Assembly (NCBI RefSeq): GCF_016907715.1 | Contig: NZ_JAFBCM010000001.1 | Location: 4,092,001-4,156,000 of the forward strand | Direction: 5' to 3' | Origin: Tenggerimyces flavus | GTDB lineage: Bacteria; Actinomycetota; Actinomycetes; Propionibacteriales; Actinopolymorphaceae | Length of the DNA: 64,000 nucleotides | Shown: positions 6,160-53,691 of the stretch, one piece after another | Position numbering within the stretch: position 1 is the stretch's first letter | How the letters are laid out: each line of letters begins with the position of its first letter | The notes under the pieces: generated by a model | The model's input: only the letters and a program-made list of their open reading frames with translations | What the model was told of the DNA's origin: nothing | Databases searched by the model: none | Translations under genes and position numbers: made by a program

Positions 6160-7296
6160 ATGGTCAGCGAGTGGCACAGGTGGCCGACGATGCGCGCCGG
6201 GGACGCCGACCGCGAGTTCGCGATGGGGCTACTGCGGCGCGGTTCCGCGGACGGTCAGCTCAGCGCGGAGGAGTTCGATCGGCGGCTGCGGCTCGCGGTG
6301 AGCGCCAAGACGGTGGGCGAGCTCGCCGGACTCGTCGACGATCTGCAGGGCTTGCACCAGCCGCCGCCGTTCGTGCCACCGCAGCAGCCGTACGCGTACG
6401 CCCACGTGCCTGGCCAGAACGCGTTCCCGCCACCGCCGCGCAAGAAGAACACTGGCGTGGTCGCCGCGATCGTGGCGATCTGCGCGGTGGTCATGCTCGG
6501 CGGCGTCACTGCGGTCGCCTTCTTCGCCACGGACTCGGACTGGACCGAGGACCTTCGGACGGAGCCCGGCGAATGCGCCGGGCCTCCTGAAGAGGTGTTC
6601 CTGATGGACTGCCTTCCTGAGGACAACCCCCTGACCTGGACCGACCTGTCCACAGCGCGGGTCGAACAGCTCGAGCGGCTGGGCCTGCCCGGATCCCTCC
6701 CGATCCTTGCCGAGGCCGACTTCGACGACCAGGCTTGGCAGTCCGCCAGCGCGAGCAAGGGAGCGACGACGTTCGCCTGGCACCTGGAGTACCTCCTCGG
6801 CGAGGTCGAGGACGCCTGGGAAGAGCTCGAGCCCGAGCACGTGCTCGCGGCATACCGGGCCACCGCCGATCCGGGCCGGTTCGGCACGGCTCCGGTCGAG
6901 GTGAAGCGGCCCGATGGCGCGATCGGACTTCGCTGGACGGCGGCGAGCGATCTGACTGTCTGGGTGTCCACCGAGCCGGACGGTGACGTGCGCGTCGAGC
7001 TCGACGTCCGCACCGAGGTGCGGCCCGCCGCGGCGCGTCCCGACGTGCTCGGGCCGCACGCGGCAGAGCTGCGGCAGCAGGCGGTGGCGAAGGTGCCGGG
7101 CATGACGTACCTGCGGTCGAACGTCAGCCAGGCTGCCGACCGCCTCGACACCTGCCTGGTGGCGCAGGTTTGGTCGGCGACGCCGGCGCAGTTCGCGGCG
7201 GTGCGTGGCAAGGTCGGTCAGGGTGTCACGGCGACCCACCAGGGCGGCGAGCTCACGTTCACGTCGATGGTGCGCTGCGCGGCGTTCAACCTCTGA
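6160..7296 (+). CDS. DUF1707-domain membrane protein with unknown ectodomain, array member 5
   Basis: The last array member encodes 378 residues. DUF1707 is at about 8-63, the linker is Pro/Gln/Tyr-rich (PPPFVPPQQPYAYAHVPGQ), and the membrane helix lies at about 98-122. The ectodomain carries the family motifs FAWHLEYLL, GMTYLRSNVSQ and CLVAQVWSATPAQF, with Cys pairs in GECAGPPEEVFLMDCLP and in CLVAQ/VRCAAFNL. It starts 12 bp after member 4 behind a GGGGGG-type Shine-Dalgarno. Its last 11 bases overlap the stop of the convergent beta-helix gene, with no terminator between them. Function unknown. Confidence 0.85.
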   Translation: MVSEWHRWPTMRAGDADREFAMGLLRRGSADGQLSAEEFDRRLRLAVSAKTVGELAGLVDDLQGLHQPPPFVPPQQPYAYAHVPGQNAFPPPPRKKNTGVVAAIVAICAVVMLGGVTAVAFFATDSDWTEDLRTEPGECAGPPEEVFLMDCLPEDNPLTWTDLSTARVEQLERLGLPGSLPILAEADFDDQAWQSASASKGATTFAWHLEYLLGEVEDAWEELEPEHVLAAYRATADPGRFGTAPVEVKRPDGAIGLRWTAASDLTVWVSTEPDGDVRVELDVRTEVRPAAARPDVLGPHAAELRQQAVAKVPGMTYLRSNVSQAADRLDTCLVAQVWSATPAQFAAVRGKVGQGVTATHQGGELTFTSMVRCAAFNL

Positions 7297-8881: not shown

Positions 8882-8949
8882 CGACACCTCGCAGGCATTC
8901 GCCAAACACGACATGGATGGAGCCAGTGTCAGAGCGATCTATACACCTG

Positions 8950-8963
8950 GGCAAGCGGTTGCC
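8950..8963. promoter_or_regulatory. LacI-family operator upstream of the beta-helix gene
   Basis: GGCAAGCGGTTGCC is an even-length palindrome with the central CG typical of LacI/GalR operators (one mismatched pair). It lies 69 bp upstream of the start at 8881 and shares the AAGCG.TT core with the site over the lacI start at 15802-15815. Confidence 0.6.
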
Positions 8964-9082
8964 AAGAGTTGCCATCGCAGCGCTCGCTTGTTCGACTGAC
9001 AAGTCTCTGGGCTACGGCGCTTCTCACGTGGGAGCTCGAATGTGCGTTGGCGAGTTGTTCGCGCGTTTGGTGCTGGCGTGGG

Positions 9083-9330
9083 CTGTCGCGGCGGTCGATT
9101 GTGGTGGCCGGTCCGGGGCGCGTCAAGGGCGCCGCGGCGGCTTCGCAGTGGGGCGGCGTCGCTTCGCGATCTTCGACCCTTGACCCGCCCCGGACCGGCC
9201 ACCAGTTTCAATGCCGCCGCCCCACCCCCGGAACAGTTCCCCGGGCCAGGCCCGCTTCAGGTGCCGGTCTGCTGCCGTGCTCGCGTCGCCAGTTGGCCCC
9301 CGGGCTTCTTGTGGTGCAGATGAAGCCGGG
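9083..9330 (+). repeat. Long interspersed repeat, copy 1 (about 250 bp, nested inverted repeat)
   Basis: This stretch is homologous along its whole length to the reverse complement of 19993-20252. Within it GGTGGCCGGTCCGGGGCG, followed by CGTCAAGGG, is inverted as CCCTTGAC and CGCCCCGGACCGGCCACC about 65 bp later. The core CGCTTCGCGATCTTCGACC is conserved in both copies. No open frame in it has recognisable protein character. It fills most of the 535-bp gene-free gap 8882-9417, together with the operator at 8950 and the palindrome at 9350. Confidence 0.8.
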
Positions 9331-9349
9331 CCGTCCGTCTCCGCTCCTC

Positions 9350-9406
9350 TTTGAATGAAGGGCACCTTCATTCAATAGGTTCGAATGAAGGTGCCCTTCA
9401 TTCAAA
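9350..9406. repeat. Palindromic element, family A copy 1
   Basis: A perfect 24-bp inverted repeat with a 9-base loop: TTTGAATGAAGGGCACC.. against ..GGTGCCCTTCATTCAAA. Each arm is itself a palindrome (GAATGAAGG GCA CCTTCATTC), so it can fold as one long hairpin or a cruciform of two. It sits 11 bp beyond the DUF456 stop and may end that transcript. Related elements are at 47520 and 47591. Confidence 0.85.
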
Positions 9407-9417
9407 CCCCTGGGCGG

Positions 9418-9909
9418 CTAGGTGACGATCACGGTGATCAGCCAGGTGAGGAACATCGCCACGCCGAAGGCGAGTTCCACCAGGATCGAGATTCCTGCGG
9501 CCTTCAGGGCCGCCACTGTCGAGGGCCAGGCCGCGTCGTGGGTCTTGAGGCGCACCCGCTCCGCGAGGTAGATCCCCGCGATGAAGCCCACGAACACACC
9601 CACGACCGGGATCACGAAGAAGCCCACCAGCGCGGCGAGGCCACCGATCCACAGGGTGCTGTTCGGCACCCCAGCCTTCGAGAGATCACGCCCAGGCAAG
9701 ACGTACTTGACGACCTGACTCACGATCAGCAGCACGCCCGTGATCGCGAGGATCCACCAGCCGACGGCGCTCTGTTCCTCCAACGCCCAGACGAGGATCG
9801 CCAGCCAGACCAGGATGATGCCGGGCAGGATCGGAACGACGATGCCAGCGAGCCCGACCGCCATGGCGATGCCCACGAGTACGAGCCCCAGTGTGTTCAC
9901 ACGGAACAC
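9418..9909 (-). CDS. DUF456 family membrane protein
   Basis: A 163-residue integral membrane protein with four to five hydrophobic segments. The signature GLAGIVVPILPGIILVWLAILV near the N-terminus and GLAALVGFFVIPVVGVFVGFIAGIY in the middle identify DUF456, a widespread small membrane family without known activity. The GTG at 9909 is used as start; a second GTG three codons later is possible. It is divergent from the methyltransferase gene, with 33 bp between starts, so the two promoters overlap. A palindrome just past the stop probably terminates it. Confidence 0.82.
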   Translation of the reverse strand: MFRVNTLGLVLVGIAMAVGLAGIVVPILPGIILVWLAILVWALEEQSAVGWWILAITGVLLIVSQVVKYVLPGRDLSKAGVPNSTLWIGGLAALVGFFVIPVVGVFVGFIAGIYLAERVRLKTHDAAWPSTVAALKAAGISILVELAFGVAMFLTWLITVIVT

Positions 9910-9942
9910 TGTAATGGCGAGGAACGCGCCCGGTACGGCACG

Positions 9943-10749
9943 ATGGGCGGCATGGACTGGAGCGTGGGGGAGTACGAGCTCACCGCGGCGCAGCTGCTGC
10001 CCGCGGCGAAGATCCTCGTGGACCTGGCAGCACCCAAACCCGGCGAGGTCGTCGTGGACGTCGGCTGCGGAACGGGCAACGCAGCGCTCCTCGCCGCGGT
10101 CACCGGCGCGAAGGTGACCGGCGTCGACCCGGCGCGCCGCCTCCTCGAGGTGGCCAGAGCAAGAGCAAAGGACGAGGGCCTGGACGTCACGTTCGTCGAG
10201 GGAACGGGCGAAGCGATCCCGCTCGACGACGGGGTTGCGAACGTGGTGGTCTCCTCGTTCGGCGTGATGTTCTCACCCGACGTCCCGGCTGCCGTCGCGG
10301 AGCTCGACCGGATCACCGCGACGGGTGGGCGGATCCTCGTCACGTCGTTCCCGCCCGAAGGCCCGATGATGAAGGTGATGGGCGCCGCGATCGAGGAGCT
10401 CTCCCGCGTCCTCCCGCCGCCGCCCGCCTCCAACGATCGGGCCGAGAAGCCGTTCGGCTGGCACGACGAGGCCGACGTCCGTACGGCGTTCGAGCCCCGC
10501 GGGTTCGAGGTGACCGTGACCAGGCACCAGCTGCCGATGCGAGCGACTTCGGTCCAGGCCCACCTCGAACGCCTGGAGAAGCATCCGTCCGCGATCACCG
10601 GTCTGCAGGCGGTCCCCGACGCGAAGCGGACCGAGGTCGCCGGACGGATCCGACGCCGGATGACGGAGGTGCTCGAGACGGTGAACGAGGATCCGGCCGC
10701 CTTCCTGATCACGTCCCCGTTCACGATCGCGACCATCCGGCGACGCTGA
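9943..10749 (+). CDS. SAM-dependent class I methyltransferase
   Basis: The product of about 268 residues is a Rossmann-fold methyltransferase of the Methyltransf_11/UbiE-like group. Motif I is VVVDVGCGTGNAALLAA, the acidic residue ending beta 2 is in VTGVDPA, and the post-I motif is FVEGTGEAIPLDDGVANVVV. The C-terminal part (HLERLEKHPSAITGLQAVP) is helical, as in small-molecule methyltransferases. The substrate cannot be inferred. Two in-frame ATGs (9943 and 9952) are equally plausible starts, and no strong ribosome-binding site precedes either; a leaderless message is possible. Confidence 0.85.
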   Translation: MGGMDWSVGEYELTAAQLLPAAKILVDLAAPKPGEVVVDVGCGTGNAALLAAVTGAKVTGVDPARRLLEVARARAKDEGLDVTFVEGTGEAIPLDDGVANVVVSSFGVMFSPDVPAAVAELDRITATGGRILVTSFPPEGPMMKVMGAAIEELSRVLPPPPASNDRAEKPFGWHDEADVRTAFEPRGFEVTVTRHQLPMRATSVQAHLERLEKHPSAITGLQAVPDAKRTEVAGRIRRRMTEVLETVNEDPAAFLITSPFTIATIRRR

Positions 10750-38162: not shown

Positions 38163-38860
38163 CTCAGCACGACCCAGAGGCGATCGGGGCATATGTCCTC
38201 GGAGCGCTCGATGCGGAGGACGTTCCCGCGCTGGAGCGGCACCTGGCGACCTGCCCGCAGTGCCAGGGCGAGTACGCGGCCATGCAGGAGGGACGGATGG
38301 CGCTGCACGAGCTGCCGCCGGAGGCGCTCCTCGACGGTCCGCCGGAGGGCGGCGACCTGCTGCTGCAGCGGACGCTGCGGACCGTTCGGACCGAACGCGG
38401 CGCGACCGTGAAGCGGCGGACGCTGGCCATCGCGCTCGCGGCCGCCGCGGTGGTGGTCATCGGCGTCGGGGGAGGCGCCGTGGTGGGACGGGTCACCGCG
38501 CCGGACAAGGTGATCACGCAGCCGGCACCGACACCGACACCGACACCGGTGCCGGGGACGAGGCAGGTCGAGGCCACCGACGCCGCGACGGGCGCGAGCA
38601 TGGACCTGACGGTCGTGCCCGCTGCCGGCTGGGTGCGCATCACCGCGGACGTCGCCGGCATCCCGCAGGGCGAACGGTGCCGGATCTACGTCGTCGCCCG
38701 CGACGGCAAGCGCGAGCTGGTGGGCAGCTGGCTCGTCTCCGAGACCGGCGCCGCCAAGGGCACCGTGCTCTCCGGCCAGGCGCTCATCGCGCCCGACCAG
38801 GTCGCCGGCGTCGAGGTCGAGAACTACTCGGGCCGGAAGTTCGTCCGCGCCAACATCTAG
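38159..38860 (+). CDS. RskA-type membrane anti-sigma factor with zinc-binding N-terminus
   Basis: The 233-residue protein begins with an anti-sigma domain whose zinc site HLATCPQC (His-x3-Cys-x2-Cys) is intact. It then has a membrane helix (LAIALAAAAVVVIGVGGGAV, about 91-110), a Pro/Thr linker and an exterior RskA-like domain. It should hold the preceding ECF sigma inactive until regulated proteolysis releases it. The G of the stop codon is the first base of a large palindrome that probably ends the transcript. Confidence 0.9.
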   Translation: MTQHDPEAIGAYVLGALDAEDVPALERHLATCPQCQGEYAAMQEGRMALHELPPEALLDGPPEGGDLLLQRTLRTVRTERGATVKRRTLAIALAAAAVVVIGVGGGAVVGRVTAPDKVITQPAPTPTPTPVPGTRQVEATDAATGASMDLTVVPAAGWVRITADVAGIPQGERCRIYVVARDGKRELVGSWLVSETGAAKGTVLSGQALIAPDQVAGVEVENYSGRKFVRANI

Positions 38861-38935
38861 TGATCATGAACGTGATCATGAAGGCGTACCCGTCGTATAC
38901 GACTAGTTTCCCTTCATGATCACGAACATGATCAC
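38860..38935. repeat. Palindromic element, family B copy 1 (likely bidirectional terminator)
   Basis: GTGATCATGAACGTGATCAT at 38860 begins a 25-base arm matched at 38911-38935 with two mismatches. The loop contains GTCGTATACGAC, itself a palindrome. It lies between the convergent anti-sigma and parC genes. A second copy with the same loop core is at 47663. Confidence 0.8.
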
Positions 38936-41506: not shown

Positions 41507-42274
41507 TCATCGGGCGAGTACGGGTGCCCGATATGTCCCGAACACGTGCCGCTCGGCGACCGACCACGCGGTGGTCGTCAGCAGATAGAGCGCGGCGGCG
41601 AGCGGAACGAACGCGGCGGCCACGACCGTGCCGAACGGAGCCAGCCGGGACAACGTCCCCATCATGCCCTGCATGGACCGCGCCAGCTCCGGCGACACGT
41701 TGTCGGGCATCGCGGTCGGGGTGAGCGCCATGGCCTGCTTGGCCTGCTTCGACGACCACCACGCGACCGCCGCGAGTAGGACGAACAGCGCGCCGAACAC
41801 GAGCAGGTCGGGCGGCAGCAGTCCGGTCGCGAGGTCGGCGAGCCACCTGTCGCCGAGCGGGACGCCGAGCAGGGTGTGGGTGAGCAGCAGGTTGGCCTGC
41901 CCGTTCACGGTCGGGGTGAGGAAGAGCCGGTACATCACCATGAAGATCGGCGCCTGCGCGAGCAGGGGGAGGAAGCCGGCGAACTGCGAGGTCTGGTGGT
42001 GCTGGCGGAGGTCGTTCAGCTCCTTCTTCAGCCTCGCGGGGGAGCTCTTGAACTGCTTGCGGAGCTCGAGCTCTCTCGGTCGCATCGCCAGGCGAGCCTT
42101 GGTGGCGCGCGCCGCGCGGTAGCTGAGGGGGAGGAGGAGAAGTCGTACGGCAATCGTGACCAGCACGATCGCGCCGGCGGTCGAGGCGTCGCCGAGGATG
42201 GGGTGCAGCACATCGCCGACGGCCGCGACCACACGGGAGGCGACATCGACGGCAGGGTCGAGGAAGGTGAGCAC
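41507..42274 (-). CDS. yidC: YidC/Oxa1-family membrane insertase paralogue
   Basis: The 255-residue protein has the five-helix YidC core. GAIVLVTIAVRLLLLPLSYR carries the conserved groove Arg, a cytoplasmic coiled region follows (KKELNDLRQHHQTSQFAGFL), and LPLLAQAPIFMVMYRLFL is the next conserved segment. It inserts proteins into the cytoplasmic membrane. This copy is not near rpmH/rnpA, so it is likely the second actinobacterial YidC. The GTG start follows GAAAGG. It is next to a DUF6412 gene in the same direction, 38 bp apart, a pairing I recall from other actinobacteria. Confidence 0.87.
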   Translation of the reverse strand: MLTFLDPAVDVASRVVAAVGDVLHPILGDASTAGAIVLVTIAVRLLLLPLSYRAARATKARLAMRPRELELRKQFKSSPARLKKELNDLRQHHQTSQFAGFLPLLAQAPIFMVMYRLFLTPTVNGQANLLLTHTLLGVPLGDRWLADLATGLLPPDLLVFGALFVLLAAVAWWSSKQAKQAMALTPTAMPDNVSPELARSMQGMMGTLSRLAPFGTVVAAAFVPLAAALYLLTTTAWSVAERHVFGTYRAPVLAR

Positions 42275-42312
42275 GGTGGTGCCTTTCGAGAGCTGGGGTG
42301 GTCAGGGCTGCT

Positions 42313-42555
42313 TCAGAAGCAGGAACGCCCGGACGGTGCTCTCGGACGCGGCCTTCCGGCGGCGTCGGGATCGGTCTGCGGAACGAGCACGGTCGACTCG
42401 ATGTGGCGACGGTCGAGCGTGACGACTCGTTGGGTGCGGCTGACGACTACGGTGGCCCGCGCTGCGCCGCGGACGGCGCCGAGTACGAGCACGCCGACCA
42501 GGACCGCCGCCGAGAGGGCGAGCAGGCCGGTCGGAGTGGCCAACAGCTCGAGCAC
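42313..42555 (-). CDS. DUF6412-like small membrane protein
   Basis: The 80-residue product has one membrane helix (TGLLALSAAVLVGVLVLGAV) and the C-terminal signature PQTDPDAAGRPRPRAPS, which marks the DUF6412 family found beside YidC-like insertases. A role in insertion is a guess from context. It starts at GTG, 61 bp from the divergent lacI gene, so the LacI operator at 42580 may also affect it. Confidence 0.7.
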   Translation of the reverse strand: MLELLATPTGLLALSAAVLVGVLVLGAVRGAARATVVVSRTQRVVTLDRRHIESTVLVPQTDPDAAGRPRPRAPSGRSCF

Positions 42556-42579
42556 GACGCCAGCATAGCCCGGTCCCGT

Positions 42580-42596
42580 AGTCTATTCGTGTAGAC
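42580..42596. promoter_or_regulatory. LacI operator upstream of lacI (matches the ABC operon operator)
   Basis: AGTCTATTCGTGTAGAC lies 20 bp before the lacI start. Its first 16 bases match 15 of 16 with the reverse complement of 47873-47888. The centre is CG, as in LacI operators. Confidence 0.7.
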
Positions 42597-42616
42597 GCAT
42601 CTGGTCAGGAGGGCTC

Positions 42617-43615
42617 GTGGTCAAGCGGGACGAGGTGGCACGGCGCGCGGGGGTGTCGGCCGCGGTGGTCAGCTACGTGATGAACAACGGGCCACGCCCG
42701 GTCGCGGACGCCACCCGGCAGCGCGTGCTGGCCGCGGTGGAGGAGCTCGGCTACCGCCCGAACGGTGTCGCCCGGGCCCTGCGGTCCCGGCGTACGTGGT
42801 CGATCGGCCTGGTCGTGCCGGACAACTCCAACCCGTTCTTCGCCCAGCTCGCGCACGCGATCGAGGACGAGACGTTCGCCCGCGGGTACTCGCTTCTGGT
42901 CGGCAACGCGTCCGGCGACGCGGCGCGGGTGGAGAGCTACCTACGAACGTTCCAGGACCGGCAGGTCGATGGTCTGATCGTGGTGACGAACGGACCGACG
43001 GAAGACCTGGCGCGCACCTACGAAGGTCGGGTGCCGCTGGTGATCGTCGTGGATCAACCGGTCCGCGGACTAGCCGCTTCGACGGTGAAGGTGGACAACA
43101 AGGAGGGGGCACGGCTCGCGACCGAGCACCTTGTGTCGCATGGCTTCACCCGAATTGCCTGCATCGCCGGTCCGCGCGACAGTGCGCCCGGCAGGGAGCG
43201 GTACGAAGGGTGGCAGACGGCCCTGCGCGCTGCCGGGTTGGCGGCACCGGACTCGCTGGTGCGCTGGGCGGAGTTCAGCCTGCGCGGTGGTGCCGAGGCT
43301 GTGCGGGAGCTGCTGGATTCTTCGCCTGCTCCGGAGGCGGTCTTCGCGGCCACCGACCTGCAGGCGATCGGTGCGCTGCGCGGGACCGCGGATGCGGGCG
43401 TCTCCGTACCCGACGGGCTCGCCATCGTCGGCTTCGACGGAATCGCGGAGGCCGAGTACACCGTGCCGAGGCTCGCGACCGTGCGCCAGCCGGTGGGGCT
43501 GATGGGGCGACGGGCGGTCGAGTTGCTGTTCCGGGAGAACGGAGGCGACCAGGTGCACGAGGTGTTCCCGCTCACGCTGGTGTCCCGTGGGACCTGCGGC
43601 TGCCCCGAACGTTAG
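42617..43615 (+). CDS. LacI/GalR-family repressor of the nearby ABC operon
   Basis: The 332-residue protein has the DNA-binding domain VKRDEVARRAGVSAAVVSYV, hinge RPNGVARALRSRR and a sugar-binding-like core (DNSNPFFAQLAHAIEDETFA, VDGLIVVTNGP, FAATDLQAIGALRG, IVGFDGIAEAEYTVP). AGGAGGG precedes the GTG start. Its promoter carries a palindrome almost identical to one before the ABC importer at 47921, so it most likely represses itself and that operon until a nucleoside or sugar ligand binds. Confidence 0.93.
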   Translation: MVKRDEVARRAGVSAAVVSYVMNNGPRPVADATRQRVLAAVEELGYRPNGVARALRSRRTWSIGLVVPDNSNPFFAQLAHAIEDETFARGYSLLVGNASGDAARVESYLRTFQDRQVDGLIVVTNGPTEDLARTYEGRVPLVIVVDQPVRGLAASTVKVDNKEGARLATEHLVSHGFTRIACIAGPRDSAPGRERYEGWQTALRAAGLAAPDSLVRWAEFSLRGGAEAVRELLDSSPAPEAVFAATDLQAIGALRGTADAGVSVPDGLAIVGFDGIAEAEYTVPRLATVRQPVGLMGRRAVELLFRENGGDQVHEVFPLTLVSRGTCGCPER

Positions 43616-43622
43616 AAACGCT

Positions 43623-43650
43623 CGGAGGGCCCACGCTCGTGGACCCTCCG
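43623..43650. terminator. Bidirectional terminator hairpin
   Basis: CGGAGGGCCCAC (43623-43634) pairs with GTGGACCCTCCG (43639-43650), one mismatch and a 4-base loop. It sits between the convergent lacI and small secreted protein genes. Confidence 0.7.
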
Positions 43651-43655
43651 ATCAC

Positions 43656-44015
43656 TCAGTTCTCCGCTCGGTTGCGTCGGCGCAGGCCGACGAATCCCGC
43701 ACCCAGCAAGGTGATTCCGGCGAGGGCGCCGCCGGCGACCTGCACCTTGGTCCAGTCCTGCTCGACGGCCGCTGCCTTCTGCGGGGTCTTGGGTGGTGTG
43801 ACAACGGGCGTCGGCTTCGCTTCCGGGCGACAGGGCTCGACGACGACCTCCGGGTGGTCGTACAGGGCGTCTCCCGGTCGGAGACAGCGTTCGTTGGTCG
43901 GCGCGTAGTCGCGGAGTTCGGTCGGCTCGTCCGGGACGGCCATCGCCGGGGTGGCGAAGGTCACGCTGGCCAGGACGGCGGCGAACGCCAAGCCGAGGAC
44001 GGTCTTCGTGGACAT
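43656..44015 (-). CDS. Small secreted, C-terminally membrane-anchored protein
   Basis: The 119-residue product has a signal peptide (MSTKTVLGLAFAAVLASVTF, cleavage after about AMA at 26). A short exterior segment with two Cys (NERCLRPGD, VVEPCRPEAK) and a Pro/Thr-rich stalk follow. The C-terminal end is a helix plus LRRRNRAEN (about 92-119), the shape of a sortase sorting signal, but no LPXTG-type motif is seen. AAGGAG lies 8 nt before the ATG. I do not recognise the family; it is likely an anchored surface peptide. Confidence 0.72.
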   Translation of the reverse strand: MSTKTVLGLAFAAVLASVTFATPAMAVPDEPTELRDYAPTNERCLRPGDALYDHPEVVVEPCRPEAKPTPVVTPPKTPQKAAAVEQDWTKVQVAGGALAGITLLGAGFVGLRRRNRAEN

Positions 44016-44119
44016 CGCAGTGCTCCTTGGTTCGTGGTGGGTGCTGACACCAAGGACTCTGCGAGCTAAGGGGGCGGTGGGAGATCGGGGAGCAACCCTC
44101 AGATCGGGCCTCGTTCTCC

Positions 44120-47008
44120 TCAGCTGGTCAACCGGCGGGCCAGGGCGGCGAGCTCGTGCCGGTTCGTGGTGTCGGTCTTGCGCAGCAGGTTGGAGATGTG
44201 CACGCTGACCGTCTTCTCGCTGATGAACAGCGCAGTGCCGATCTCGCGGTAGGAGCGGCCGGCGACCAGGTGGGCGAGGATCTCCCGTTCGCGTTTGGTG
44301 ATGCCGCGGAACCGTTCGTCGTCCGTGGGCGTGGGGCCGCGGGGGACGTCGAGAGAGACACGGGCGAGGGTGGCGAACGCGGCCGCATCCTGCTGCAGTG
44401 GCTCGGCGCCGATGTCGGTGGCGAGCTGGTGGGCTCGCCTCAATGCTGCGGCGATCTCCGTACGGCGTCCGCCCTCTCGCAACATCGCCTCGGCCAACCG
44501 CTGACAGGCGAGCGCCTCGTCCCAGCGGAAGCCGGCGGCCCGACAGCTGTCGACGGCCTGGTGCCAGAGCTCCGCGGTGTCGTTCTCGGGTCGACATCTT
44601 GCTGACTCGGCGGTGAAGATCGCGCCTTGCGCGCGTCCCTCGACACCCTCGCCGAACGGGGTCGTGCCGTGCGCCGCGCGGAGATCGGCGAGGGTGTCCA
44701 GCCGGTCGCGTGCGGCTTCGATGCCGGCCCTGTCCTCGCGGTCGCGGGCACGTTGGGCGAGGTCGGCGGCGGCTCGGGCACCCCACATCAACATCTCGTC
44801 GCACAGCCACCGATCCATTGCCTGGTTCGGCATCGCCTCGCAGAGGAGGTCGAGTGCCTGGTCGGCCCGACCGCTCGCGAGGTGGTGGAACGCGTAGACC
44901 GGCTGGGGGATCAGGCCGTAGTGGTGGGGGAGCGACGGGACGAGCTCCTCGGCGCGGCGCAGGTGCTGGGCGGCCTGGTCTGTTCGGCCGCGCATGGTGG
45001 CGAGGCGGGCCGCTCGGAGGAGGACGTTCGCTCCGCCGATGCCGCCTGCCCTTATCGCGAGGCCCTCGCGGACCAGTTCTGCCGCGGCGGGGAGGTCGCC
45101 GAGCGCCAGCCGTCGGTCCGCGGCCGTACCGGCCAGGAACGCTGTCGTGGCGGCCGCTGGGAACGTGGCGCTGGCCTCGGCGAACGCTCTGGTGGTGACG
45201 TCGGCGGAGTCCTGGAACCGACCGACGTCCCAGAGCGCGTTCGACCACCAGACGGCGGCGCGGGCGGCGACCTGGTGGAATCCTTCCGCGCTGGCGTAGC
45301 GGTAGGCCTGCTCGCCTTCTTCCACCGCTTTCGGTTTGCCCTCGTCGACGCGTGCCCTCGCGGCGAGTGCCCAGGCTCTGCCTTCCGGTTGGTTGGCGGC
45401 CTCGATCGCCTGTGTGGCATGGAGATTGGCGGCTGTCCAGTCGTCGTCCCAGGCTTCGGCTTCGGCGACGGTCGCGAGCGCTAGGACGTACTCGACGCTG
45501 TCTGGGTCTGTTGTGCTCAGCGCTAGCGCCTCGCGTGCTTCGCGCAACGGGTGCTGGGCGACGCGGCCGGTGCGGAAGACGAGGCCGCACCATTCGCAGA
45601 GCAATCGCGCTGCCAGTAAGGGATTCTCCGTGCGGTCGACGATGCGCAACGCGTGGTCGGCGTGCGCGAACCCTGCCTGTTCGTCGCCTGCTCGGTTGGC
45701 GGCGTCGACCGCGTGTCTGAGCAGGGCAAGGAGATCGCCGTGCTCTGCTACCTGCGGCCAGAGCTCGATGGCGTGGCTGAGCTGGCTGGTCTGCTCGGCG
45801 TAGCCCTGGACCTGAGCGGCGCTGTTGGCGGCTTTGAGCGCGTACTGGAACGCTTCGGTGAGGTCTCCGACGAGCTCGTGGTGGAGCGCGAGCTCGGCTG
45901 CTTGGCCCATACGTGGCGACTCGTTCAGTCTGGCGATGAACGCACGGTGGGCTCGTTCGGCCTCGCCGGGCAGGAGGGTGTCGTCGACGACCTCGGCGGT
46001 CAGCGGGTGGCCGAACCAGGTGCGTGCTTCTGTGTCGGTGACGAGGACGCCGGCGTCGACGGCCTCGGTGACTGCCCTTTCGAGCGCCTCTGGGGTGATG
46101 CCGAACGCTGTGGTCACCGCCTCGAGGTCATGGTGGCGGATCGGGCGGCCGCCTGTGGCGATGAGCTGGACCACTGTGCGGGCGGTCGGCTCGAGCCGGT
46201 GCCAGGTGGCGAGGAGGGCTTCGCTTAGGGCTTTCGGTAGGCCTTGGGGGAGGCTGGCGGCGGTGGGTACGACGTCGCGGACGAGGAGCTCGGTGAGGTA
46301 GGCGTTGCCTTCTGAGCGTTCGTACACGTCGTTGACCAGGCCGGGGTCAGGGGCCTGCCCGAGGGCTTGCGCCAGCTGGGCTTCGGTGTCGTCGCGGCTG
46401 AGCCGTTCCAGCCTGAGCTCTTCGACGGCGGGGAGGCGCCGGAGGTCGGCCAGCCAGCCGCGCAACGGGAGGCCGACGCCTTCCTCGCGGGCGGTGGCGA
46501 CGACCAGCAGCCGTTGGTGGCGGAAGCCGGTGACGAGGTAGGCGAGGACGTCGAGCGAGGTCACATCGGCCCAGTGGATGTCGTCGATGACCAGCATGAC
46601 TGGCTGGTTCGAGCTGATCCTCTCGATGAGCTTGTCGATGACGGGAATCAGCCTGGGCGCTTCGGCTGGCGCGTCGCCCGCCAGCAGCTTGCCGAGGTCG
46701 TCGGTCTGCATCTCGTTGCCGGCTCGGTTCAGCCAGTGCTCGAGCGCGCCGACAATCGGGGCGTAGGGAACAGTGGCGGCGCCGAACCGTACGCACGCAC
46801 CCCACAACATGGCGAAGCCTCTTTGCTCGGCCAGCGTCCTGATCGAGGTGACGAGATGGGTCTTGCCGACCCCAGCCTCGCCGTGCACGAACACAGCCGC
46901 CGGCGTGCCCTTGGCTGCCCGCTCCATCGCGTCGATGAGCAGCGCCCGCTCGGCCATCCGGCCAGCCAGCCTCGCGGGCTCGGCGTCGGCGTCGGGGGGA
47001 GGTCGCAT
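44120..47008 (-). CDS. LAL-type LuxR regulator with N-terminal AAA ATPase
   Basis: The 962-residue protein has an AAA/STAND-type ATPase at the N-terminus (AAVFVHGEAGVGKTHLVTSI is Walker A; PVMLVIDDIHWADVTSLDVL is Walker B). A long helical TPR-like middle region follows (about 300-880), then a C-terminal LuxR helix-turn-helix (ITKREREILAHLVAGRSYRE, FISEKTVSVHISNLLRKT). Large LuxR regulators of this MalT-like class often control catabolic or antibiotic genes. Its target is unknown; the sugar importer and the lacI gene flank it. Length is normal for the class. Confidence 0.92.
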   Translation of the reverse strand: MRPPPDADAEPARLAGRMAERALLIDAMERAAKGTPAAVFVHGEAGVGKTHLVTSIRTLAEQRGFAMLWGACVRFGAATVPYAPIVGALEHWLNRAGNEMQTDDLGKLLAGDAPAEAPRLIPVIDKLIERISSNQPVMLVIDDIHWADVTSLDVLAYLVTGFRHQRLLVVATAREEGVGLPLRGWLADLRRLPAVEELRLERLSRDDTEAQLAQALGQAPDPGLVNDVYERSEGNAYLTELLVRDVVPTAASLPQGLPKALSEALLATWHRLEPTARTVVQLIATGGRPIRHHDLEAVTTAFGITPEALERAVTEAVDAGVLVTDTEARTWFGHPLTAEVVDDTLLPGEAERAHRAFIARLNESPRMGQAAELALHHELVGDLTEAFQYALKAANSAAQVQGYAEQTSQLSHAIELWPQVAEHGDLLALLRHAVDAANRAGDEQAGFAHADHALRIVDRTENPLLAARLLCEWCGLVFRTGRVAQHPLREAREALALSTTDPDSVEYVLALATVAEAEAWDDDWTAANLHATQAIEAANQPEGRAWALAARARVDEGKPKAVEEGEQAYRYASAEGFHQVAARAAVWWSNALWDVGRFQDSADVTTRAFAEASATFPAAATTAFLAGTAADRRLALGDLPAAAELVREGLAIRAGGIGGANVLLRAARLATMRGRTDQAAQHLRRAEELVPSLPHHYGLIPQPVYAFHHLASGRADQALDLLCEAMPNQAMDRWLCDEMLMWGARAAADLAQRARDREDRAGIEAARDRLDTLADLRAAHGTTPFGEGVEGRAQGAIFTAESARCRPENDTAELWHQAVDSCRAAGFRWDEALACQRLAEAMLREGGRRTEIAAALRRAHQLATDIGAEPLQQDAAAFATLARVSLDVPRGPTPTDDERFRGITKREREILAHLVAGRSYREIGTALFISEKTVSVHISNLLRKTDTTNRHELAALARRLTS

Positions 47009-47098
47009 CCGTCACGTCCAGGCAGTTCAGGCCGCCCGCGTCGTGGACGGAATCCCAGCCTAGGACGGCCATCGCCCCCGCGAGGCCAGTTCGGCCAG

Positions 47099-47503
47099 TC
47101 ACTGCACGCAGAACTCGTTGCCCTCGGGGTCTTGCAGGACGGTCCAAGAGGTGCCGCGCTCTGCGCGATCGGCGACGTGGGTGGCGCCGATGCCGACTAG
47201 ACGGGCCACCTCCACAGCGATCTGCTCGCGGCCGCCACCGACGAAGATGTCGAGATGGACGCGGTTCTTGCCCCGCTTGGTATCCGTCACCGTAGGGAGG
47301 AAGACTCGCGGCCCGCGTCCGTCGGGGTCGATCAGCCCGACAGCCCAGCGATCCTTCGGGATGTCGTTCACCCGAGCGAACTCCCGCCACGACTCGAACC
47401 CGCGCGGCGCTGGCTCCACCACGTAGCCGAGAGCCGTTGCCCAGAACTCGGCCAGTCGGACCGGATCGTGCGCGTCGATGACGATCTGGAGCTCGCGTCC
47501 CAT
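47099..47503 (-). CDS. VOC (glyoxalase/bleomycin-resistance) family protein
   Basis: The 134-residue product has the two beta-alpha-beta3 modules of the VOC fold: LQIVIDAHDPVRLAEFWATA with ALGYVVE, then RVHLDIFVGGGREQIAVEVA and WTVLQDPEGNEFCVQ. Metal-ligand candidates are His/Glu in VHLDI and NEF. The reaction is not assignable; many such actinobacterial proteins are of unknown substrate. Downstream of the start (plus-strand side) begins a cluster of four palindromes. Confidence 0.88.
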   Translation of the reverse strand: MGRELQIVIDAHDPVRLAEFWATALGYVVEPAPRGFESWREFARVNDIPKDRWAVGLIDPDGRGPRVFLPTVTDTKRGKNRVHLDIFVGGGREQIAVEVARLVGIGATHVADRAERGTSWTVLQDPEGNEFCVQ

Positions 47504-47519
47504 ACCGAACCTGCCCAGG

Positions 47520-47575
47520 TTGGATGAAGGGCACCTTCATCCAAACCTATTGGATGAAGGTGCCCTTCATCCAAA
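47520..47575. repeat. Palindromic element, family A copy 2
   Basis: TTGGATGAAGGGCACC.. is inverted as ..GGTGCCCTTCATCCAA. The loop AACCTAT is the reverse complement of the loop core of the copy at 9350, while A-T pairs in the arms there are G-C pairs here on both sides. It opens the 417-bp gene-free stretch 47504-47920. Confidence 0.85.
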
Positions 47576-47590
47576 GGTGGCGGGGTCTGG

Positions 47591-47646
47591 TTGGGTCGGG
47601 GGCACCCCGGTCCGAACCTATGGGACCAGGGCGCCCCTCACCCAAA
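47591..47646. repeat. Palindromic element, family A copy 3 (degenerate)
   Basis: TTGGGTCGGGGGCACC.. against GGGCGCCCCTCACCCAA keeps the length and the GAACCTATGG loop, but the arms carry several unpaired changes. It lies 15 bp after copy 2. Confidence 0.6.
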
Positions 47647-47662
47647 CCCTCGGCCACCGGTC

Positions 47663-47740
47663 CGTGATCATGAGCGTGATCATGAAGGCAAACCCGGCGT
47701 ATACGACCAGTTCGGCTTCATGATCACGTTCATGATCACG
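47663..47740. repeat. Palindromic element, family B copy 2
   Basis: CGTGATCATGAGCGTGATCA begins a 25-base arm inverted at 47716-47740 with one mismatch. The loop holds GCGTATACGACCAGTT, matching the loop of the copy at 38860. Confidence 0.8.
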
Positions 47741-47791
47741 GGCGTTGAGCGCACCCAGAGTCGCGATGCGGGGAGTGGAGCGCGGGGGTGG

Positions 47792-47850
47792 TTTCGAATG
47801 AGGGCGTCCCTGTAGCGATCTATTCGATAGAGGGACGCCCTCATTCGAAA
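47792..47850. repeat. Palindromic element with 20-bp perfect arms (family D)
   Basis: TTTCGAATGAGGGCGTCCCT (47792-47811) is perfectly inverted at 47831-47850. The 19-base loop GTAGCGATCTATTCGATAG can fold further. It is 22 bp upstream of the LacI operator of the ABC operon. Confidence 0.8.
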
Positions 47851-47872
47851 CGGAGGGGTCTTGACCGGGCTA

Positions 47873-47888
47873 TCTACACGAGTAGACT
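47873..47888. promoter_or_regulatory. LacI operator of the ABC importer operon
   Basis: TCTACACGAGTAGACT contains TCTAC-A-CG-A-GTAGA, an even palindrome with central CG and only the sixth pair mismatched, 32 bp before the binding-protein start. It matches the site at the lacI promoter (42580-42595) in 15 of 16 bases. Confidence 0.75.
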
Positions 47889-47920: not shown

Positions 47921-49219
47921 ATGCGTCTACGAGCGCTTGCGGTCGCCGTTCTGGCGGTCGCGCTCACCGCGGCCTGCGGTGGGAGCGGGAGCGGGAACGG
48001 CAACAGCAACAGCGGTGGCAACACGACGTTGAACTTCGTCGGGCCAGAGGTGCCCGCGACGTTCCAGCCGGTCATCGCCGCGTTCGAGAAGGACCATCCG
48101 ACGATCAAGGTCAAGTACACGTCGGTCCCGTTCGACCAGCTCAACAGCGTGCTCCAGCAACGGCTCGGCGCCAAAGACGCGGGCATCGACGTCTACACGG
48201 TCGACCAGTCGCGCGTCGCCTCGTACGCCGCCCGCGGGTTCCTCGTCGACCTCACCGAGCACGCCCAAGACGTCAAGGACAGCGCCCTGCCGCCGCAGTA
48301 CGACGCGAGCACCTGGAACGACAAGCTCTGGGGGATGCCGATCTGGACCTCCGAGCAGTACCTCTTCTACAACAAGGCACTCCTCGCCAAGGCCGGCGTC
48401 ACGCCACCCAAGAGCACCGAGAAGGACAGGTGGACCTGGGAGCAGGTCACCGACGCCGCCAAGAAGGCCAAGCAAACAGGCGCGACCTGGGGACTGCTGT
48501 TCGACCAGACCGACCGCTACTACCAGCTCCAGCCCCTCCCGGAGTCCAAAGGAGCCGGCAACGGCATCCAAGGCGACGACCTCCTCCAGCCCGACCTCAC
48601 CAACGACGGCTGGGTTAGCGCGATGACCTGGTACGGCGGCCTGTTCAAGGACGGCATCTCGCCGCGCGGCGTCGACACGGCGCAGATGAACCCGCTGTTC
48701 GCCGCCGGCAAGGCCGCGTTCTTCGTCGGCGGCCCCTGGGCGCTCACCGCGTTCAAGCAAGCCCGCAAGGAGAAGAAGCTCGACTACGGCATCGCACCCC
48801 ACCCATACTTCGACGGCGGCAAGGTCGCCACCCCGACCGACTCGTGGTCCTGGGGCATCAACCCGGCGTCGAAGAATCAGCAAGCGGCGTTGGAGTTCCT
48901 CCGCTTCGCCAGCGTCAACGCCAAGGGCAACGAGGCCACGATCGCCAAGGTCTTCATCGCGCCCGCCAACAAGACGGCGTTCGACAACTACGCCAAGCAG
49001 CTCGACGCGTTCGACCCGCCCGTGACCGACGGCGCCGGCGCGCTCATGCTGTACGAGCTCAACAACACCGTCGTGCACCGGCCGCGGTCGGTCGGGTACG
49101 TGCAGTTCGAGGACATCATGCTCAAGGCGTTCGCCGACATCCGCAACGGCGCCGACCCGAAGCCACGCCTCGAGACCGCGTCGACCGAGCTGCAGGCCGC
49201 GTGGGATCGGCTCAAGTGA
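47921..49219 (+). CDS. ABC importer, extracellular solute-binding lipoprotein (family 1)
   Basis: The 432-residue protein has a lipoprotein signal (LAVAVLAVALTAAC, lipid Cys at about 19), a Gly/Ser/Asn spacer, and the periplasmic-binding type 2 fold of sugar importers (FQPVIAAFEKDHPTIKVKYT, WGMPIWTSEQYLFYNKALLA, GKAAFFVGGPWALTAFKQAR). It catches an oligosaccharide, sugar or nucleoside outside the cell for the two permeases that follow. The ATG at 47921 is chosen because it begins a proper signal; the open frame from 47861 would run through the promoter. LacI control is indicated by the operator at 47873. Confidence 0.92.
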   Translation: MRLRALAVAVLAVALTAACGGSGSGNGNSNSGGNTTLNFVGPEVPATFQPVIAAFEKDHPTIKVKYTSVPFDQLNSVLQQRLGAKDAGIDVYTVDQSRVASYAARGFLVDLTEHAQDVKDSALPPQYDASTWNDKLWGMPIWTSEQYLFYNKALLAKAGVTPPKSTEKDRWTWEQVTDAAKKAKQTGATWGLLFDQTDRYYQLQPLPESKGAGNGIQGDDLLQPDLTNDGWVSAMTWYGGLFKDGISPRGVDTAQMNPLFAAGKAAFFVGGPWALTAFKQARKEKKLDYGIAPHPYFDGGKVATPTDSWSWGINPASKNQQAALEFLRFASVNAKGNEATIAKVFIAPANKTAFDNYAKQLDAFDPPVTDGAGALMLYELNNTVVHRPRSVGYVQFEDIMLKAFADIRNGADPKPRLETASTELQAAWDRLK

Positions 49220-50157
49220 CCCGAACGGAGACCGCGCCACGCCAAGACGCGAACGTGCCAGCGCAAACGCCATCGAGGACGCGCAAGAGGTTGCGCGACC
49301 AACAGTGGCTCGTGGCGCTCGCGTTCGTCGCACCCGGCGCGATCGCGCTGGTCCTGCTGCGGGTCGTCCCCGCCGTCGACGCGTTCCTTGACAGCCTGCA
49401 ACGCACCAGCGTCCTCCGGCAGACCACGAGCTGGGTCGGCCTGCAGAACTACGTCGACCTCCTCCAAGACCCTGGCTTCCGGCAGACCGTCAAGGTCACC
49501 GCGATCTTCAGCCTGATCGTCAACCCGATCCAGATCCTCACAGCGCTGCTCATCGCCCTCCTCCTGCACAAAGTCCTTCCAGGCGGGCGAGTCTGGCGCG
49601 CGTTCGTGTTCATCCCCGTCGCCGTCCCCGCGGCGGTGTCGACGATCATCTGGGGCATCGCGTTCCAGCCGAACGGTCTCATCAACGCCTTCCTCGACGT
49701 CATCGGCATCGGCAGGCAACCGTTCCTCACCTCGCCGCAGCAGGCGATGTGGTCGGTGCTCGTGATGCTGTCCTGGATCGGCGTGGGCTACTGGATGATC
49801 TTCCTGATTGCCGGCCTGCAGGACATCCCCGCGTCCTACTACGAGGCGGCCAAGGTCGACGGCGCCGGAACGTGGCGGACGTTCGTCAACATCACCTTGC
49901 CCCTGCTCCGGCGCCCGCTCGCCTTCGTGCTCGTCGCCGACACCGTCTCGAACTTCCTGGTCTTCGCGCCGATCCAGATCCTCACCAACGGCGGGCCTGA
50001 GAACACCACGCGGCTGGTGATGTTCGACATCTACAACAAGGCTTACCAGGTAGGCGATGTGAACCTCGCTCAGGCCGAGGTCGTGCTGCTCGTCCTGGTG
50101 ATGGCCGCGATCGTCAGCGTCCAGTTCTGGCTCCTCAACCGTCGAGGAGTCGACTAG
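49216..50157 (+). CDS. ABC sugar importer permease 1 (MalF/UgpA-like)
   Basis: The 313-residue membrane protein has six helices and the EAA loop (DIPASYYEAAKVDGAGTWRT, FVNITLPLLRRP) that contacts the ATPase. The GTG start overlaps the stop of the binding-protein gene (GTGA). Together with the next gene it forms the channel. No ATPase gene is present in the operon, so a shared MsmK-like ATPase encoded elsewhere is expected, as is common in actinobacteria. Confidence 0.92.
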   Translation: MTRTETAPRQDANVPAQTPSRTRKRLRDQQWLVALAFVAPGAIALVLLRVVPAVDAFLDSLQRTSVLRQTTSWVGLQNYVDLLQDPGFRQTVKVTAIFSLIVNPIQILTALLIALLLHKVLPGGRVWRAFVFIPVAVPAAVSTIIWGIAFQPNGLINAFLDVIGIGRQPFLTSPQQAMWSVLVMLSWIGVGYWMIFLIAGLQDIPASYYEAAKVDGAGTWRTFVNITLPLLRRPLAFVLVADTVSNFLVFAPIQILTNGGPENTTRLVMFDIYNKAYQVGDVNLAQAEVVLLVLVMAAIVSVQFWLLNRRGVD

Positions 50158-50988
50158 ATGCACACTGTCAAGCTCAGGTTGCGTACGGCAGCTGCAGCCA
50201 TCATTGCGATCCTGTTCATCCTGCCGCTGCTGTGGGTGCTGACCAGTTCGCTCAACCCCGGCAACGACTTTCTGCGCTACCTGTCGCCGCTGTCGGTGGA
50301 GAGCTTCGTCCCGCTGCGTCCGAACTTCGCCAACTACGCCAACCTCGTGCAGGGCGACTTCGGCCGCGCGATCCTCAACTCGCTGTGGGTCTGCTTCGTC
50401 ACCGTGGTGGTCGGCCTGGCGATCTGCGCTTCGACGGCGTTCGGCCTGTCGGCGTTGCGATTTCGTGGTGCGGGCATCGTGTTCGGCGTTGTGGTGCTGA
50501 GCTTCCTCATCCCGTTCGACGCGATCGCGATCCCGCTCGCGAACCTGTTCCGCGACTGGGGCCTGCAGAACACCTACACCGGGCTCATCCTGCCGGGTAT
50601 CGGCAACGGGTTCACGATCTTCCTCCTGAGGCAGTTCTTCCTCGCCATCCCGCGCGAGCTCGTGGAGGCGGCGCGCGTCGACGGGATGGGCTGGTGGGGC
50701 GTGTTCACGCGGATCTACCTACCGCTGTCGAGGCCAGCACTGGTTGGGGCCGGGCTGACCTTGTTCCTCTTCCAGTGGCAGGCGTACATGTGGCCGCTGC
50801 TGATCGGAACCGAGCCCGCGAAGCAGCTCGCGCCGATCGCGCTCGCGAACCTGCAGGGACAGTTCACGGTCGACTTCGGCCAGATCTTCGCCGGATCGCT
50901 GGTACTCACGCTCGTTCCGATGATCCTCATGCTGCGATTCCAACGCCACTTCACCCAATCCATGACGACGACCGGCCTGAAGGACTGA
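50158..50988 (+). CDS. ABC sugar importer permease 2 (MalG/UgpE-like)
   Basis: The 276-residue protein has six predicted helices and the EAA loop (IPRELVEAARVDGMGWWGVF, TRIYLPLSRP). Its ATG follows directly after the stop of permease 1 with no gap. The sequence NFANYANLVQGDFGRAILNS is typical of the MalG side. Confidence 0.92.
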   Translation: MHTVKLRLRTAAAAIIAILFILPLLWVLTSSLNPGNDFLRYLSPLSVESFVPLRPNFANYANLVQGDFGRAILNSLWVCFVTVVVGLAICASTAFGLSALRFRGAGIVFGVVVLSFLIPFDAIAIPLANLFRDWGLQNTYTGLILPGIGNGFTIFLLRQFFLAIPRELVEAARVDGMGWWGVFTRIYLPLSRPALVGAGLTLFLFQWQAYMWPLLIGTEPAKQLAPIALANLQGQFTVDFGQIFAGSLVLTLVPMILMLRFQRHFTQSMTTTGLKD

Positions 50989-51972: not shown

Positions 51973-53007
51973 ATGCTAGGACGGTTGCTCGTGGCAGGTG
52001 CCCTGATCGGTGCGTTCGGTCCCTCCGGGGCCGCCGTGCCGGAGCCGAAGCTGGTGTACGACGCGCCCGTGGGCATCTACGCGTACGGGCCGAGCGTGAT
52101 CGACGAGGGCTCGACGCGCTGGATGTGGACGTGCCACAACCAGGACCCGCGGGTGATCCGCGACCACGTCTACTACACGAAGTTCGTGGGTGGCTCGATC
52201 GTGACCGATCGCTCTGTCCTGCAGGCGAGTCTTACCGGCTGGGACTCGTTCCACACCTGCGATCCGAGCGTAGTCGCGGGGGTGTTCCGGTACGGCGGGC
52301 ATCGGTACTCGTACGCGATGTTCTATCTGGGCAACGATCTCGACGCCTCCGCGCACAACCAGGTCGGCGTCGCGTTCGCGGACTCGCTCGATGGGCCGTG
52401 GCGGAAGTACCCCGAGCCGGTGGTGCGGTTCCAGAACGTGTCGCAGTGGGGCGCGGGGCAGCCGTCCGCACTCACGTTGTCGCCGGGGACCGGGCGGGTC
52501 GAGCTGTTCTACACGCAGGGCGACACGTCGACGCGGGCGTTCCATCGTTCCGTGGACCTGTCGAACGTCGACAGGATGCGCGTCGGCGAGCCGGTCGAGC
52601 TGACCACGGCCGGGCTGACGGGGACCGACGGGGGAACGGACTGGCTGAACAACTACGACATCGCGTACGAGCCCAGGTCGCGGCGGTTCGTCGTGGTGCG
52701 CGAGCAGCATCCGTACCCTCCCGAGGGCGACAACCCGTGGTGGATCGGCCGCGCCGTGCAGGTCGCGACCATCGACGCGCGCACGTTGCTGCGGGGCGAG
52801 GGTACGTGGCACGTCGAAGGTGTGATCTCCCCGGAACGAACAGGCTTCGCGCGCAACCACAACGCCGGGTTGGTACGGACGAAAGACGGGTGGCTGCCAC
52901 GTTCGGACCATACGAAGGTCGTCTTCACCGACTCCTGCGCCGGGCCGACGTGCGACTCGCTGTACGAGTACGACCTGTGGGAGCTGCACCAGCCGCTCAG
53001 CCGCTAG
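51973..53007 (+). CDS. Secreted beta-propeller, glycosidase-like (GH43/32-type fold)
   Basis: The 344-residue product has a signal peptide (MLGRLLVAGALIGAFGPSGA) and a five-bladed-propeller-like pattern: YDAPVGIYAYGPSVIDEGST, FHTCDPSVVAG, DSLDGPWRKYPEPVV, NYDIAYEPRSRRFVVV, FARNHNAGLVR. The repeated acidic and aromatic residues resemble GH43/GH117-type glycosidases, but I cannot place the catalytic acids with certainty. It ends the importer operon (16 bp after the nucleoside hydrolase, GGGAGAA ribosome-binding site) and probably liberates the imported substrate outside the cell. Confidence 0.72.
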   Translation: MLGRLLVAGALIGAFGPSGAAVPEPKLVYDAPVGIYAYGPSVIDEGSTRWMWTCHNQDPRVIRDHVYYTKFVGGSIVTDRSVLQASLTGWDSFHTCDPSVVAGVFRYGGHRYSYAMFYLGNDLDASAHNQVGVAFADSLDGPWRKYPEPVVRFQNVSQWGAGQPSALTLSPGTGRVELFYTQGDTSTRAFHRSVDLSNVDRMRVGEPVELTTAGLTGTDGGTDWLNNYDIAYEPRSRRFVVVREQHPYPPEGDNPWWIGRAVQVATIDARTLLRGEGTWHVEGVISPERTGFARNHNAGLVRTKDGWLPRSDHTKVVFTDSCAGPTCDSLYEYDLWELHQPLSR

Positions 53008-53046: not shown

Positions 53047-53691
53047 ATGAGCGAGCTGGGCGAGATCTACGCGGACGTGGAGCGCGGGGTGTTTCCGCCG
53101 GCGGACGGTGCCGTGCGGTTCGTGCCGCCGCCTTCGGAGCGGGACTCCGTGGTGGTCGCGTTCACCGCGCACTTCGTCGTCGCCGCCGATGTCGACGAGC
53201 AATGGGCACGGCCGTATGTTCCGGACGGCGACTTCACCGCGCCGCTGAATCCGCCGTTCCTGTACGCACTCGAGCAGAAGCTCGGCAGGCAGGTCGGCTG
53301 CATCGACGTCGCCCTGCTCGCGCCACGGCTCGAAGGCACGCCCGACCTGCACCTGGAGCAGGCCGACACCAGCAACCACGCCAGGGTCGAACGCAGCCTC
53401 GAGCACCGCGACGACGTACGGACCTACGTCACCGACGGCGCCGTGCTGACAGTCGGACGCGGCCTCGCCGGGAGGTGGGAGGCCGCGTTCGAGGTCGATC
53501 CGACCTACCGGGGCAGGGGACTGGGCCGCCGCGTGATCGAGGCCGCCCGCCACCTCGTTCCCGAGGGCGCGAGCCTGTGGTGCCAGGTCTCGCCCGGCAA
53601 TGCCGCCTCGCTCCGGGCCGTTCTCGCGGCCGGCTTTCAGCCCGTCGGCTCCGAGGCGATCCTCACCGCCGAGTCCGCACCAGATCGATGA
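53047..53691 (+). CDS. GNAT-family N-acetyltransferase
   Basis: The 214-residue protein has a long N-terminal part without clear family, then a GNAT core (WEAAFEVDPTYRGRGLGRRV is the acetyl-CoA loop; LWCQVSPGNAASLRAVLAAG is the last helix). The substrate is unknown. Its last 29 bases overlap the convergent DJ-1/PfpI gene. Confidence 0.85.
   Translation: MSELGEIYADVERGVFPPADGAVRFVPPPSERDSVVVAFTAHFVVAADVDEQWARPYVPDGDFTAPLNPPFLYALEQKLGRQVGCIDVALLAPRLEGTPDLHLEQADTSNHARVERSLEHRDDVRTYVTDGAVLTVGRGLAGRWEAAFEVDPTYRGRGLGRRVIEAARHLVPEGASLWCQVSPGNAASLRAVLAAGFQPVGSEAILTAESAPDR

Follow-up and report, generated by a model that had tools for sequence, protein, structure and literature searches.

The nearest known system to the one considered here is the uridine utilisation system of Corynebacterium (uriR, rbsK, uriT, uriH), in which, as outlined in PMC3350403 and PMC4052901, a LacI/GalR-family repressor is combined with a nucleoside hydrolase and a ribokinase, while the transporter UriT is of the major-facilitator type (PMC3350403). 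UriR is counted among the LacI regulators of nucleoside utilisation in PMC4052901, which also describes the sites of published LacI regulons as palindromes, CG-centred in the case of 1173 of 1303 factors, gives autoregulation as 72% and places more than 75% of the sites 30-140 bp before the start. The LacI subfamily described below and its motif do not appear in the passages of that paper drawn on here, and among the open PMC papers listed by literature searches none dealt with this subfamily or with a ribofuranosidase propeller.

The locus analysed lies within a stretch of 64,000 nucleotides of Tenggerimyces flavus (contig NZ_JAFBCM010000001.1, positions 4,092,001 to 4,156,000), hereafter referred to as the window. 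It resembles the UriR system in having a LacI-family repressor and a nucleoside hydrolase, but uptake is assigned to an ABC importer, a propeller protein is added, the operon contains no kinase and the regulator stands apart. The window LacI reaches only 160.6 bits against the UriR model NF051853 (curated cut-off 550 bits). A second point of comparison is RbsR, as the top NCBIfam model and the top solved-structure match (9ny7) of the window LacI are of this kind and ribose is the likely sugar; however, the scores of 244.1 bits (NF007743, cut-off 531) and 217.5 bits (NF047341, cut-off 382) fall short of both RbsR models, and the solute-binding protein (SBP) and permeases of the importer are of the maltose type. 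With the local LacI sugar regulons of PMC4052901, the locus shares a CG-centred even palindrome and a predicted autoregulation, although operator 1, at 22-37 bp, lies closer to its start than the usual 30-140 bp. The last protein of the operon has a remote profile likeness to the propellers of GH43 and 3,6-anhydro-alpha-L-galactosidases and scores below the GH43 cut-off.

Two near-identical operators and the genes around them

The original prediction joined lacI to a distant importer operon through two 16-mers, about 5.3 kb apart and differing at one base, with three minus-strand genes in between, and all of these features are present (Table 1). Operator 1 ends 21 bases short of the lacI GTG, operator 2 is separated from the importer ATG by 32 bases, and each contains a 14-bp CG-centred near-palindrome, TCTATTCGTGTAGA in operator 1 (42582-42595) and TCTACTCGTGTAGA in operator 2. 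The CG-centred even palindrome expected near the gene of a LacI-family protein is thus found, in imperfect form. Both the N-terminal helix-turn-helix and the periplasmic-binding-like effector domain of the protein score above the curated Pfam cut-offs.

Table 1. Coordinates of the operators, promoter and genes of the lacI-importer region in the window.
Feature	Position	Strand	Remarks
Operator 1, AGTCTATTCGTGTAGA	42580-42595	+	22-37 bp before lacI GTG at 42617
lacI, LacI-family repressor, 332 aa, recognition helix AVVSYVMN	42617-43615	+	Pfam LacI 4.7e-15, Peripla_BP_3 4.3e-32
Minus-strand gene	43656-44015	-	Start read by eye within longer frame
LuxR-type regulator with ATPase domain	44120-47008	-	Between lacI and importer
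Glyoxalase-like gene	47099-47503	-	Between lacI and importer
Promoter-like TTGACC-16-TAGACT	47861-47888	+	-10 hexamer formed by the final six bases of operator 2
Operator 2, AGTCTACTCGTGTAGA	47873-47888	-	33-48 bp upstream of the importer ATG at 47921
Extracellular solute-binding protein (SBP), 432 aa	47921-49219	+	Pfam SBP_bac_1 2.3e-41
Importer permease A	49216-50157	+	Pfam BPD_transp_1 5.9e-19
Importer permease B	50158-50988	+	Pfam BPD_transp_1 3.7e-15
Nucleoside hydrolase with DTDPGMGTIDTDPEDS loop	50994-51956	+	Pfam IU_nuc_hydro 3.3e-75
Propeller protein, signal-peptide-like N terminus (by eye)	51973-53007	+	Probable propeller-type glycosidase, remote similarity
GNAT acetyltransferase	53047-53691	+	Pfam Acetyltransf_1 4.4e-06; possible last operon gene

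The promoter-like element upstream of the importer is the only sigma-70-like match in the 481 bases scanned there (shuffle mean 0.1). As operator 2 covers its -10 box, repression at this box is the direct reading at the importer; at lacI, where a scan of 42300-42640 returned no sigma-70-like match, we infer it. The genes downstream are tightly packed, the SBP and permease A genes overlapping by 4 bases and the gaps to permease B, the hydrolase and the propeller gene being 0, 5 and 16 bases, respectively. The GNAT gene starts 39 bases past the propeller gene, and its protein gave no match in the relative loci searched. A plasmid search with the SBP returned four records, all with less than 60% identity.

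The region immediately upstream of the importer (47500-47851) also holds four stacked long inverted repeats with arms of 23-45 nt and 80-93% complementarity. Two of these families recur at 38860-38935 and 9351-9405, and the repeats look like an intergenic repeat family.

Within the window, a search allowing up to three mismatches recovers only the two 16-mer sites, whereas 100 shuffles gave 0.18 on average. When two 150-bp pieces of the window were drawn at random, 101 of 20,000 draws had a 16-mer in common with at most one mismatch; pairs of pieces closer than 1 kb were passed over in this count, although the denominator still includes them. This corresponds to a chance of about 0.5% for a preselected pair, and the pair by itself is therefore only suggestive. 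The genome scan proposed with the original prediction gave a divided outcome. The exact core TCTANNCGNNTAGA occurs at two places in 8.5 Mb, both of them here, but no enrichment is apparent at looser settings: nine further places carry the core with one mismatch, and the strand matches stay below those of a reversed control at up to one mismatch for the looser core (22 versus 80) as well as at up to two (26 versus 43). The exact uniqueness of the pair across the genome makes a stronger case than the chance estimate from the window, and the decisive support is comparative.

Operator 1 lies in a 61-bp spacer from which an 80-aa ORF (42313-42555) and a YidC-like gene (together 41507-42555, minus strand) diverge from lacI, and these two may be co-regulated with it. 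A one-mismatch core, ACTATACGAGTAGA, is located 34 bases before a gene of the DHDPS family (L014 7510-8496, genome 5491509-5492495). A regulon extended to either of these sets would be compatible with control of the importer, but since the genome has no more one-mismatch cores than the reversed control gives, we regard such an extension as rather unlikely. The core beside the DHDPS-family gene (L014 8531-8544, genome 5492530) is a possible third target or background.

Conservation of the regulator in relatives

The SBP was used at E 1e-50 to search 293 genomes of the order, evenly drawn from a larger group, and matched at least 31 of them, one being the genome under study. This and the other genome counts are lower bounds, because only the best five to seven first-look candidates per genome were scored (five for the SBP search in the order). 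The nucleoside hydrolase, at E 1e-70, matched its own genome only (at least 1 of 293), and the SBP is the better bait. All 30 relative loci found through the importer (loci are denoted by L numbers) have a LacI-family gene within the 9-20 kb fetched; a nucleoside hydrolase is present in 29 of the 30, and equally many have the VSYVxNxGPR helix region in their LacI. The exception in the latter respect, L141, has a LacI of another class, neither motif nor hydrolase being found there. A ribokinase-like kinase occurs in 11 of 31 loci tested, namely in L012 and in 10 of a fetched set of 30 that includes 23 importer loci. For the two kinases scored, ribokinase was the best model, at 258.4 and 263.6 bits and thus below the curated cut-off of 299.65 bits.

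With 44 LacI-family proteins in the genome, and with paralogs of this family able to have common operators, a LacI-family protein other than the one in the window might be thought to bind the importer site. The VSYVxNxGPR region is, however, found in the window LacI alone among the 44, and it is this protein that is the best match, among all 44, for the LacI of 29 of the 30 importer loci, so that binding by a paralog appears highly improbable. For relative LacI proteins overall the figure is 53 of 54, a set that was in part chosen by similarity to the window LacI. With the window LacI as query, a search of genome contigs yielded just two distant loci, at 29 and 23% identity.

Conservation of the operator in relatives

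The operator was followed in 37 loci, the 30 found through the importer and seven found through the propeller protein, the latter from seven genomes besides the one under study among 394 of the class. Regions from -350 to +100 of the extrapolated starts of cluster genes, 92,237 bp altogether, were taken as near. The exact motif TCWANNCGNNTWGA has 53 copies in these near regions and none in the other 571,231 bp, and at least one exact copy is present in all seven propeller loci and in 28 of the 30 found through the importer (35/37). The two loci devoid of it are L141 and L142, the latter carrying a one-mismatch near-match of the TCAA type. Because coding sequence makes up most of what remains, the near regions themselves served for a second control, based on the 96 palindromes that have the same half-site letters and a CG, GC, AT or TA centre. 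Here TCWANNCGNNTWGA ranks first with its 53 copies, followed by the overlapping WCTA form (43) and the next palindrome (6), the median of the other 95 being zero.

These results bear directly on a coincidental origin of the site pair, according to which some other regulator would control the importer. The roughly one in two hundred random 150-bp draws that yield such a word, and the lack of enrichment in the loose genome scans, would be compatible with coincidence. However, the motif sits close to the starts of cluster genes in 35 of the 37 relative loci with no copy elsewhere in them, and its same-letter palindromes hardly recur except for the overlapping WCTA form, both of which speak against coincidence. 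On the basis of this distribution and of the palindrome control, chance was rejected, despite the weakness of the pair alone, and we rate it as very unlikely.

The half-sites tend to vary with the recognition helix. Each repressor with the helix ALVSYV (importer loci L012, L013, L048, L050, L051 and L143) has at least one TCAA..TTGA site, while AVVSYV repressors mostly have TCTA..TAGA sites. In L145 and L146, the closest relatives, the sites are hybrids that pair a TCTA half with a TCAA half instead of TCTA..TAGA, which shows that helix class and half-site do not correspond one to one; hybrid sites are also found in L059 and L144, and L142 departs as well with its TCAA-type near-match. In 16 of 17 loci inspected from genus g5, L128 being the exception, a palindrome filter of this analysis picked two such palindromes upstream of the SBP gene, at a distance of 13-15 bp from each other; their tandem form is TCTAASCGSTTAGA, from which L127 and L138 differ in one last base. 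The same exact core precedes an AVVSYV-class lacI in L055, L058 and L064, which have no hydrolase or SBP match, only permease matches of 30-36% in two of the three. The substrate is thus not fixed by the operator class alone.

Gene arrangement in relatives

The closest LacI proteins, those of L145 and L146 (68 and 66% identical), are encoded divergently beside a hydrolase-SBP-permease-permease-kinase series, with the propeller gene further along; hybrid sites precede both the hydrolase and the SBP gene. In L059 and L104, lacI heads the order lacI-propeller-hydrolase-SBP-permease-permease. L147-L151 resemble the window in layout: an exact site before lacI is shared with the divergent gene of a second hydrolase, and the propeller and hydrolase genes, themselves divergent, have one-mismatch sites between them at a distance of about 6 kb. 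Given these arrangements, the genome under study is best read as carrying a rearranged conserved unit, whose regulator would have moved away from the operon that it adjoins in relatives.

The nucleoside hydrolase

The hydrolase of the operon belongs to PF01156 (253.9 bits, cut-off 34.2). Five residues, D6, D8, D20, N173 and D244, are invariant in five aligned sequences, and D6, D8, D20 and D244 are presumably metal ligands. In some, though not all, hydrolases of this kind, a histidine right before the last metal aspartate activates the base. This residue has no match here (F243-D244); the same position reads F-D in L146 and H-D in L012, L059 and L147. The DTDPGMGTIDTDPEDS loop is enlarged, and this feature, together with the phenylalanine in place of histidine, may indicate an unusual leaving group. 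The presence of this hydrolase, along with the ribokinase-like kinases of relatives, points to nucleosides or ribosides and to ribose as the likely compounds used. A kinase matching that of L012 was not found in the window, the operon included, at E 1e-6.

The propeller protein and the second hydrolase

No Pfam or NCBIfam family matches the last operon protein at E 0.001, and against GH43 (PF04616) it scores 13.7 bits with a cut-off of 32.2. A whole-sequence profile match (E 1.2e-7) was obtained to 3,6-anhydro-alpha-L-galactosidases, a family that we take to be GH117, and weak matches also to GH43-type chains; the value of 1.2e-7 sums two short weak stretches, with E values of their own of 0.0011 and 0.37. 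A five-bladed fold is possible in view of weak profile matches, a single-sequence model (pLDDT 35) being unusable. The protein is probably secreted, judging from its N terminus, and these remote similarities make a propeller-type glycosidase probable. At E 1e-20 it has matches in at least five other genomes among the 293 of the order and at least seven others among the 394 of the class.

A second, divergent nucleoside-hydrolase-like protein of about 370 aa (L146 4249-5355) is present in all ten relative loci in which propeller and LacI genes are clustered (L052, L059, L104 and L145-L151), the query coming from L146 and the nine others being matched by search. It was not found in L103 and L105-L107, which have a propeller homolog and no LacI match nearby, in five LacI loci devoid of a propeller gene (L012, L054, L060, L063 and L140), or in the window. 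Nor was it found in the rest of the genome under study at E 1e-5, a search that had no positive-control genome and used the query that matches nine relative loci. In L103, a protein of 1468 aa (6343-10749) has the propeller homolog as its C-terminal part and contains GH123, CBM6 and DUF7402 domains, a fusion which suggests a role of the propeller homolog on glycans.

The transported compound may, instead of a nucleoside, be a ribofuranoside or another glycoside, freed outside the cell by the propeller protein before the hydrolase acts on it. The probable secretion of the protein with its remote likeness to anhydrogalactosidases and GH43, the second hydrolase beside the propeller gene in the ten LacI-linked relatives, and the carbohydrate-type models matched by the SBP and permeases are in line with such a route, which would be compatible with the same regulation. 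However, both the hydrolase of the operon, a true member of IU_nuc_hydro (3.3e-75), and the ribokinase-like kinases of some relatives point to nucleosides, and a propeller match is absent from 28 of the 30 importer loci; we see a glycoside substrate as a possibility of lesser probability. A new catabolic pathway, in which an external polymer or conjugate is attacked by a secreted propeller glycosidase of an unclassified family and the ribofuranosyl or nucleoside-like unit so freed is used by the importer and hydrolase, is likewise proposed only tentatively.

The proposed circuit and its significance

The assignment of the window LacI to the operon for the importer, nucleoside hydrolase and propeller protein is supported by the LacI gene in 30/30 importer loci and the motif in 35/37 loci, and we hold with high confidence that this LacI controls both itself and the distant operon via two single operators. 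The sites in the window are near-identical, and relatives have both genes adjacent to each other with the same type of site. The system is therefore very probably an ordinary local repressor circuit that has been split by other genes.

In the proposed circuit, a LacI dimer would bind the CG-centred near-palindrome TCTA-N2-CG-N2-TAGA before its own gene, giving autoregulation, and would also cover the -10 box of the importer promoter, acting as a repressor rather than an activator. Production of the SBP, both permeases, the hydrolase and the propeller protein, the last of these probably secreted, would thereby be shut off. When a nucleoside enters, or its ribose does, LacI would be released by an inducer that is probably ribose or a nucleoside; the importer would then take up the substrate and the hydrolase cleave it to give sugar and base. 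The ribokinase-like kinase found in the cluster of some relatives would subsequently phosphorylate the sugar.

For this LacI subfamily, the analysis provides a candidate operator, TCWANNCGNNTWGA, and a testable regulon in the order and class sampled. It also illustrates that motif and gene neighbourhood, taken together, allow a regulator to be matched with good confidence to an operon from which it stands apart. The least ordinary part of the circuit is the propeller protein, which is worth biochemical study as a representative of a protein family that is uncharacterised, probably secreted and linked to nucleoside hydrolases.
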